Source: Alteromonadales bacterium alter-6D02 (lineage in GTDB: Bacteria; Pseudomonadota; Gammaproteobacteria; Enterobacterales; Psychrobiaceae). From it: a DNA stretch of 64,000 nt. Position 1 is the stretch's first letter, and each line of letters begins with the position of its first letter. The notes under the pieces are model-generated. The model saw only the letters and a list, made by a program, of their open reading frames with translations, was not told the DNA's origin and ran no database searches. The stretch lies in NCBI GenBank assembly GCA_002835545.1, contig PIZK01000005.1:1-64000 (forward strand). The letters are read 5' to 3'. Below, one piece after another: positions 35,054 through 39,261 of the stretch. A program made the position numbers and the translations under genes.

Positions 35054-37048
35054 ATGTCTGATTTACAAGATATTTTAATCCCTGACGTTGGTGGGGAAGA
35101 AGTAGAAATTATTGAGATTTGTGTTGCTGTTGGCGAGACAGTTGAAGAAGAAGCGGCATTAATTACCGTTGAATCTGATAAAGCATCAATGGATATTCCT
35201 GCACCGTTTAGCGGCACAATTAGCGAACTGAGTATCAGTGTTGGTGACAAAGTGTCTGAAGGTATGCGTATTGGTGCAATGGCTACAGGTGCAACAGCAC
35301 CGGTAGAGGCGCCAGCTGCTGTAGAGGCTTCTACTCCTGCACCAGCTGCTCCTGTAGTTGAAACGGCACCTGTTGCTGCACCAACAGCGACTGCTAGCGC
35401 AGTTCTGGAAGTCCATGTCCCTGATATCGGTGAAGACGGTCAAGTTGATGTTATCGAAGTATTAGTTAGCGTTGGTGATGTTGTTGCTGAAGAAGATGGC
35501 TTAATTACGCTTGAAACTGATAAAGCAACCATGGATGTACCTGCGCCATTTGCTGGCACAGTGAAGGAAATTAAAGTCACTGTCGGTGATAAAGTTGGCG
35601 AAGGCTCTTTGATTGTCCTTATTGAAACGGCAAGTGCTGCCTCTGCACCCGTTTCTGCACCTGTTGCAGAAGCTCCTGCTCCAGCTACCCAACCAGCTCC
35701 AGCTTCAGCACCTGTTGCTGCACCTGCGGTTGCTTCAGCTCCAGCATTACAAGATGTTGCGGTACCAGATATCGGTGAAGACGGTGAAGTTGATGTTATC
35801 GAAGTCTTAGTAGCTGTTGGTGACACGGTTGCTGAAGAAGATGGCTTAATCACTTTAGAAACTGATAAAGCGACGATGGACGTGCCTGCTCCTTTTGCCG
35901 GTGTGGTTAAAGAATTACGTATCGAAGTCGGTGGAAAAGTTGCGACAGGCACTATTATCGCCGTTATTGAAACGGCTGGTGGTACTGTTGAAACCGCTCC
36001 AGTTGCTGCAGCGCCAGCTCCTGTAGCTCAAGCTGCACCTGCACCAGTTGCTGCGCCAGCGCCAAAAGCGCCGCCGGTACCTCATCATCCATCTGCAGGT
36101 GATAAAGGCAAGCGCACTAAAGCACATGCTTCACCGTCTGTACGCCGTTTAGCGCGTGAGTTTGGCGTTGATTTGTCACTTGTTACGGGTACAGGTCGTA
36201 AAGGTCGTGTATTACGTGAAGATGTACAGTCATACGTTAAATATGAACTATCTCGCCCGAAAGCGACGGCGGCAACAAATACTTCAGCTAGTAATGAAGG
36301 TGGTTTAAGCGTTGTTTCAGCTAAGCCTGTGGATTTCTCGAAGTTTGGTGAAATCGAAGAAAAGCCGTTATCGCGTATTCAGAAAATTTCTGGTCCATTC
36401 TTACATCGTAACTGGGTAACTATTCCACATGTTACTCATTTTGATGAAGCGGATATCACTGAATTAGAAGTGTTCCGTAAAGAGCAAAACGCTTTAGCTG
36501 AAAAGCAAAAGCTAGGCCTTAAAATTTCACCATTAGTGTTTATCATGAAGGCGGCAGCAAAAGCGTTAGCGGCTCACCCAACGTTTAACTCATCGTTAAG
36601 CCCGGATGGTGAATCGCTTATTCTTAAGAAATACATTCACATTGGTATCGCGGTTGATACACCAAATGGGCTTGTGGTACCAGTGGTGCGTAATGTTGAT
36701 CAGAAAGGTATTCATGAGCTATCTCGTGAGCTAGGTGAGATTTCTAAGAAAGCCCGTGATGGCAAGCTTAAAGCGGCTGACATGCAAGGTGGCTGTTTCA
36801 CTATTTCAAGCCTTGGCGGCATCGGCGGTACGGCATTTACGCCAATCGTTAATGCGCCAGAAGTGGCTATCTTAGGTGTTTCTAAATCAGAAATTAAACC
36901 GAAATGGAATGGTAAAGAATTTGAACCTAAATTAATGGTTCCGCTATCTACTTCATACGATCACCGTGTGATTGATGGCGCTGAGGCAGCACGCTTTAGT
37001 GCAACCTTAGCTGGCGTGTTATCAGATATTAGACGCCTAGTTCTTTAA
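35054..37048 (+). CDS. aceF: Pyruvate dehydrogenase E2, dihydrolipoamide acetyltransferase
   Basis: A 664-aa core enzyme transferring acetyl groups to CoA. Three N-terminal lipoyl domains are present, with lipoyl lysines at residues 43 (ESDKAS), 157 (ETDKAT) and 272 (ETDKAT). They are separated by Ala/Pro-rich flexible linkers. The E1/E3-binding domain lies at about 358-390 ([13 protein letters not shown]), followed by the catalytic domain with active-site His in SYDHRVIDG (about 634-642). Domains 2 and 3 are almost identical in DNA around their lipoyl sites. It is co-transcribed with aceE. Confidence 0.98.
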
Positions 37049-38682: not shown

Positions 38683-38713
38683 AAAAAGGGCTGTCATTTG
38701 ACGGCCCTTTTTT
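38683..38713 (+). terminator. Terminator of lpd
   Basis: A long stem AAAAAGGGCTGTCA / TGACGGCCCTTTTT (one T-G opposition) with a T-run starts 18 bp after lpd. Confidence 0.93.
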
Positions 38714-38813
38714 ATGGCTATGTCTTAGTTAGCTGTTGTAGATATTTTATTATTTTTAAACTCAATGCATTAAATATAGCAGACTACTTTTCAGCATGAG
38801 GTATTCCCCGGTA

Positions 38814-39138
38814 TTAATTGCCTTTAAGTGGAGAGCTGTTAGGATAAAAATTCAGGGACGAATTTTTAGATTTTAGCGCATGGATGCGCATAAAAATCGG
38901 TGACGTTAAAACAGCTTTTCACTTAAAGGTCAGCAATTAAATTACGGGTCGCCTTTGCAAATAACATCCTTGTTATTTGTCCTACGGACCAGCTAAAGCT
39001 GTCTTAAATTGCTCCCTGCAATTTAATCTTTTAGTTACTTTTCTTTGGCGAAGCACAAAATTGTCTGGAACAATTTTGTACAGCGCGGCTGCCCGAAGGG
39101 TGAAATACATGGATGTATTTCATATAAGAAAAGTAACT
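38814..39138. repeat. Non-coding multi-hairpin repeat element
   Basis: This gene-free segment is a chain of palindromes. A three-part long stem pairs 38814-38840 with 38910-38940 (8-, 9- and 7-bp perfect blocks). Inside it lie AAAAATTC/GAATTTTT (38846-38867) and GCGCAT/ATGCGC (38876-38889). Next come AAATAACA/TGTTATTT (38959-38978), CAGCT/AGCTG (38990-39001) and TTAAATTGC/GCAATTTAA (39004-39026). A 13-bp perfect pair AGTTACTTTTCTT (39033-39045) / AAGAAAAGTAACT (39126-39138) encloses ACAAAATTGT/ACAATTTTGT (39055-39079) and TGAAATACAT/ATGTATTTCA (39101-39122). Loops are mostly 2-6 bases. Sequences of this style recur in related genomes to my knowledge, without an assigned role. Confidence 0.75.
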
Positions 39139-39261
39139 GGTGTGCTCGAGCAAGCTTCACATTAGTCAGCAACTAGTCTTAGCACATCAAAGATCAGCTG
39201 CCATTAACAAATCGCAACAGTTAACAGCGACATAGCCTTTTTTATGGGCGAGGGGTTTTTA

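Follow-up and report, generated by a model that had tools for sequence, protein, structure and literature searches.

What is the gene-free, hairpin-rich DNA that separates lpd from a convergent corB-like gene in Alteromonadales bacterium alter-6D02? The locus lies in a 64,000-nucleotide stretch of contig PIZK01000005.1 (the window), in which a dihydrolipoamide acetyltransferase with apparently three lipoyl domains is encoded upstream of lpd (35054-37048). A preliminary description pointed to 325 bp (38814-39138) as richer in inverted repeats than chance would give, and offered a mobile repeat, a structured RNA, a protein-binding array or a chromosome-organisation element as its nature. The density is real, with 13 inverted-repeat pairs in 38750-39200. 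The 325-bp segment contains five perfect-stem hairpins of at least 8 bp, compared with 0.07 in dinucleotide shuffles (maximum 2), and six tight perfect hairpins with stems of at least 6 bp, compared with 0.89 (maximum 5 in 500 shuffles); none of the other 325-bp stretches in the window matches either count. Both strands fold strongly relative to shuffles (-113 kcal/mol, z = -7.5, for the plus strand; -109 kcal/mol, z = -10, for the minus strand). The two nested domains that had been described are both present, the first pairing 38821-38840 with 38910-38929 and extended by 38814-38821 with 38933-38940, and the second pairing AGTTACTTTTCTT with AAGAAAAGTAACT (39033-39045 and 39126-39138). Two points required amendment. 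The loop sequences reported as shared do occur, CATGGATG twice and CATCCT once, but the true common core is GGA; and the segment is the hairpin-dense interior of a larger feature, which spans 38716-39237 and is bounded by 8-bp direct repeats. The explanation that we favor overall, with a probability of about 0.6, is that this feature is an IS1595-type miniature inverted-repeat transposable element (MITE) carrying RNA-like modules whose GGA loops serve CsrA.

The complete element is 522 bp long and gene-less. Its terminal inverted repeats measure 23 bp each and are flanked by a target duplication of 8 bp, exact in both copies, in the arrangement TTTTTTAT - GGCTATGTCTTAGTTAGCTGTTG ... CAACAGTTAACAGCGACATAGCC - TTTTTTAT (Table 1). 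The insertion point lies within the T-tract of the terminator of lpd. BLAST comparison identifies 18 matching pieces in the same genome and pieces in seven of the eight other genomes of the genus. The terminal inverted repeats are common to copies, and exact 8-bp duplications flank further ones (TTTTTAAT at L004 and AATAAAAA at L037), with seven of eight positions agreeing at L005. Among the same-genus loci compared around the corB-like gene only one also had lpd, differently arranged, and no element-free lpd site was recovered; the target duplication serves instead as the evidence of insertion. The whole element was not found on plasmids.

Another genome of the same genus (G008, C151) contains an element of 1031 bp whose ends are the same and whose target duplication is TTTTTATA. 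It encloses a transposase gene that is frameshifted, hence inactive in that copy, and whose product is related to a protein of the IS1595 family (tblastn 8e-38; the query protein was taken from a PF12762 hit). Taken with the terminal inverted repeats and the 8-bp duplication, a same-ended relative around a broken IS1595-family transposase gene indicates that the 522-bp feature is almost certainly a MITE of the IS1595 type, and the proposal of a mobile repeat is thus borne out. GGC-starting terminal inverted repeats and an A+T-rich 8-bp target duplication are shared with IS1595 insertion sequences and MITEs, and the element is in this respect an additional representative of an already known type. 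It differs from IS1595 systems in lacking a transposase and in having an interior made of RNA-like modules rather than of an internally deleted insertion sequence. The PF12762 (IS1595 transposase) profile has no match in the alter-6D02 genome, which is not a strict bar to a MITE; the element could be a relic, or could rely on enzyme imported from elsewhere. Contig 1 of a further genome (G009) has 14 matches to the IS1595 transposase family, many of them equal in score, and the copy examined has GGCTCTGT ends; these could provide active enzyme of a related family.

Table 1. Features of the element and its flanks, in window coordinates.
Feature	Coordinates	Strand	Basis or comment
Left target-site duplication, TTTTTTAT	38708-38715		Identical to 39238-39245; within T-tract of lpd terminator
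Left terminal inverted repeat, GGCTATGTCTTAGTTAGCTGTTG	38716-38738	+	10 matches in own genome, 25 in G002
Module Y, closing stem and two GGA-loop hairpins (AGGGAC, CATGGATG)	38812-38942	+	RF01731 match, covariation
Y hairpin 1, loop AGGGAC	38845-38868	+	Inverted-repeat and hairpin scan
Y hairpin 2, GCGCATGGATGCGC	38876-38889	+	Inverted-repeat and hairpin scan
Cassette X copy 2, GGA loops AGGGA and AAGGATG	38953-39027	-	X model 70.1 bits
Carrier hairpin, AGTTACTTTTCTTTGGCGAAGC / AAGAAAAGTAACT	39033-39138	+	Loop contains X copy 1; X-less copies fold as plain hairpin
Cassette X copy 1, GGA loops CTGGA and CATGGATG	39055-39127	+	X model 84.9 bits, E 9.6e-18 (own genome)
Right terminal inverted repeat (reverse complement GGCTATGTCGCTGTTAACTGTTG)	39215-39237	-	End comparison
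Right target-site duplication, TTTTTTAT	39238-39245		Identical to left copy

The first of the interior modules, Y, is aligned over its full length by the TwoAYGGAY RNA model (RF01731) with 38.6 bits (E 1.3e-4), below the gathering score of 43, and no Rfam family matches the window at its gathering threshold. Y has the TwoAYGGAY architecture of an outer stem with two hairpins bearing AYGGAY-like loops, and covariation supports the closing stem and both hairpins, with double changes in 25 of 41 pairs. A covariance model built on Y detects copies in eight of nine genomes of the genus, up to 24 per genome, and at paired positions of the GGA strand G-U exceeds A-C by 43 to 17. We regard Y as a predicted TwoAYGGAY-like RNA module with a sub-threshold score, which departs from the Rfam family in being MITE-borne and dispersed. 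In Kangiella a neighboring module (L078) reaches 44.4 bits for RF01731, and in Kangiella aquimarina (L118, 780-1150) a Y-like TwoAYGGAY match is followed by an X in opposite orientation and then by a second X, the module order of the window in a distant genus. Near a MITE copy on contig 44 of the alter-6D02 genome (L003, 1853-1900) there is a pair of GGA hairpins (GAACAACAGGGATGTTGTTC, then CCTCCATGGACGGA) that may represent another family of double-GGA modules.

The second module, X, is about 72 bp long and consists of a GGA-loop hairpin, two small hairpins, and a final hairpin with the loop CANGGAUG; the window element has it twice, in opposite orientations. Double changes are seen in 16 of 17 pairs, the covariation score is reached by none of 500 shuffles, and an independent analysis also shows covariation. 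Failure of copies to preserve pairing, named at the outset as grounds against a conserved structure, was looked for and is absent, 98.0% of cells being paired over 121 distinct copies of X and 91% in Y; conserved structure is thereby upheld for both modules. Only 17 of about 1,990 paired cells in X stems are G-U, and at paired positions of the GGA strand the ratio of G-U to A-C is 17 to 8. GGA is present in the first loop of 118 and the second loop of 114 of the 121 distinct copies. The first distant copies were found with a pattern that fixed the loops and a small hairpin, so that loop conservation in those copies is by construction while the stems are exempt; copies in the same genus, found by BLAST with no loop pattern, retain GGA by themselves. 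Enrichment of GGA in the loops of all hairpins in a 463-kb sample of the genome is mild (1.47), and the signal thus resides in the modules rather than in every hairpin. X is weakly related to Aggregatibacter sRNA 22 (RF02902; 35.7 bits, below the 39.8 threshold), with which it shares the order of hairpins and linkers (GAAC...GGCCC..GGGCGAG...CGAGUA); the consensus loops of that RNA lack GGA.

Several comparisons indicate that X moves on its own. Some copies of the MITE have X and others lack it, with exact boundaries, at two points, of which one separates Y from the carrier hairpin and the other is in the loop of that hairpin. In one genome (G202), comparison of L204 and L205 with L202 and L203 shows one X nested within a second, in the latter's first loop. 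X also occurs within internal sites of ERIC, the 127-bp enterobacterial MITE, in E. coli, a Salmonella plasmid, Serratia and Sodalis. Three states of the queA-acpH interval are seen in E. coli: it may be empty, hold ERIC alone, or hold ERIC together with an X of 77 bp. In E. coli E2348/69 an ERIC near rpiA has X at both internal sites. Insertion and precise loss are indistinguishable from any one pair of states alone, but the nesting and the recurrence at different sites favor insertion, and X is very probably a discrete insertion cassette. No clear target duplication accompanies X in the copies compared in the MITE, X and ERIC. ERIC hosts the same cassette but is otherwise distinct from the window element: its ends are TATACCC rather than GGCTATGTC, its core is absent from the element, and its target duplication is TA (PMC2759123) rather than 8 bp.

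Other insertion cassettes of about 70 nt seem to exist. Two inserts starting with TTCCAGC and unrelated in sequence to X distinguish L204 and L205 from L202 in the G202 repeat, and an extra insert of about 75 nt (GTATAACAGATATCTTCC...) that is not X occupies the carrier hairpin in G007 (L020, 1440-1510). In the yersiniabactin region of a Salmonella plasmid (L226, 2416-2620) the interval between ybtP and ybtA contains an X-bearing ERIC that the sampled E. coli chromosomal copies lack. Insertions of about 70 bp in ERIC were reportedly described by Wilson and Sharp in 2006; to our knowledge, no cassette with paired, CsrA-like loops has been described before as common to MITE families in distant Gammaproteobacteria.

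In an even sample of the Gammaproteobacteria 116 of 274 genomes match the X model, as do 69 of 249 in a sample of the phylum, and X was found in 676 of 5,426 E. coli genomes; copy numbers per genome are to be read as at least the value obtained, with 17-19 candidates scored per genome. On plasmids X was found only in Salmonella, within an ERIC, and in phages and viral contigs it was not found. In the phylum sample csrA is present in 64 of the 69 X-bearing genomes (the exceptions being G070, G384, G406, G473 and G533) and in 94 of the 180 without X, an association weakened as evidence because phylogeny confounds it.

The character of the loops points to a candidate ligand. The dimeric protein CsrA recognizes GGA presented in the loops of hairpins, with a SELEX consensus of RUACARGGAUGU and a CsrB repeat of CAGGA(U/A/C)G (PMC7652899). 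The second X loop, CANGGAUG, fits this consensus closely, and several copies in the same genus (L031, L039 and L034) contain AUACAGGGAUGU or AUACAAGGAUGU, a full match. Each module, X and Y, displays two GGA loops, which suits a CsrA dimer, and TwoAYGGAY was proposed earlier, on independent grounds of motif matches, to bind CsrA (PMC4333381); Rfam tags it as Cis-reg, a class not given by Weinberg et al. 2010 (PMC2864571). A protein-binding array, as originally suggested, is plausible in this form. The element resembles the CsrB, CsrC and RsmX/Y/Z sponge RNAs in its multiple GGA-loop hairpins (four on the plus strand and two on the minus strand) and its CAGGAUG-like second loop, and differs from them in being a dispersed repeat with 2-4 sites per strand and long stems, known here from sequence alone and with no promoter found. 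A link between MITEs and CsrA did not appear in the literature searched, which mostly left out subscription papers.

We envisage that an IS1595-family transposase supplied in trans would move the 522-bp non-autonomous element, whose interior is a composite of a TwoAYGGAY-type Y and the separately moving X, inserted twice. Read-through from lpd, or other contexts, would provide transcription, and the element would be active only where transcribed; the paired GGA loops of the transcript could then bind a CsrA dimer, so that the transcript would serve as a small CsrA sponge or be shielded by CsrA. That CsrA binding is the reason for loop conservation has, in our estimate, somewhat less than an even chance of being right. 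More tentatively still, X may be a mobile CsrA-binding cassette of about 70 nt that spreads in csrA-bearing Proteobacteria by entering hairpin loops, both those of MITEs, ERIC included, and its own, distributing paired CsrA sites genome-wide and either adjusting the Csr network or shielding its carrier transcripts.

Several observations count against CsrA, and some of them also favor the strongest competing explanation, in which the hairpins act as DNA. X shows no orientation bias relative to the upstream neighboring gene (20 with, 20 against), such as would be expected of a sponge selected in 3' ends, and the two X copies in the window point opposite ways. Both arms of X stems change together with G-U rare, and palindrome-correcting DNA synthesis would also give such stems. 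The stems are 9-10 bp long whereas most SELEX ligands have no more than four contiguous pairs (PMC7652899), and the weakly related RF02902 keeps the scaffold with GGA-less loops. A consensus scan of the element revealed no promoter-like site or terminator, but the terminator of lpd, although evident, also escaped that scan. Viewed as a DNA-level unit, X would be a passenger of single-strand DNA mobility, its folded GGA loops recognized by a hairpin-binding recombinase or transposase with no gain to the host, and its stems would stay perfect through template switching between arms. Discrete insertions that leave little if any target duplication, in or beside hairpin loops and once exactly in the loop of another X, agree with this, as do the nearly pure Watson-Crick stems with double changes, the strong folding of both strands and the unbiased orientation. 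On the other side, such a role names no enzyme so far, the loops are nearer to the CsrA consensus than it requires, G-U exceeds A-C on the GGA strand, and X tracks csrA in the phylum sample. We consider it somewhat unlikely, yet a DNA-level or selfish role stays serious given the unbiased orientation, scarce G-U, failure of the scan to find a promoter-like site and GGA-less RF02902.

Less probable again is a cis-acting 3'-end structure, by which the element in read-through mRNA would alter the decay of neighboring transcripts with the GGA loops incidental or secondary. The insertion immediately after the lpd terminator, the strong folding of both strands and the reported effect of ERIC on mRNA stability in Yersinia (PMC2229807) are compatible with such a role, but the element lies beyond the terminator and between convergent genes, orientation is unbiased, and loop letters are kept across genera where a plain hairpin would suffice. 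A REP/BIME-like array for chromosome organization or protein binding is very improbable; beyond the palindromes being dispersed and intergenic nothing was found in favor of the chromosome-organisation proposal, the asymmetric loops are conserved on one strand per module, terminal inverted repeats and 8-bp duplications are present, and in place of a 20-40 bp palindrome with a GTAG or CGTC tag (the GTAG-type foot being known from REPs; PMC3733652) X on inspection begins with an A followed by its first stem. That the region is coding, or a pseudogene, can be virtually dismissed: the longest open reading frame in the element encodes 62 aa (38977-39165), and the differences between copies are entire 72-bp cassettes and compensatory changes in stems, with no frame kept.

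The interpretation of the locus as an IS1595-type MITE with GGA loops for CsrA joins subjects formerly handled apart: bacterial MITEs, cassettes internal to ERIC, the orphan TwoAYGGAY RNA, and the signature that marks the loops of CsrA sites. Should the loops bind CsrA, a jumping element transports sites for a global regulator, and the E. coli locus in its empty, ERIC, and ERIC plus X states renders this testable. Otherwise X is a small mobile unit, widespread and with conserved loops, for which an enzyme is needed. In both cases repeated hairpins of this sort are no longer to be taken for anonymous palindromes or spurious open reading frames.
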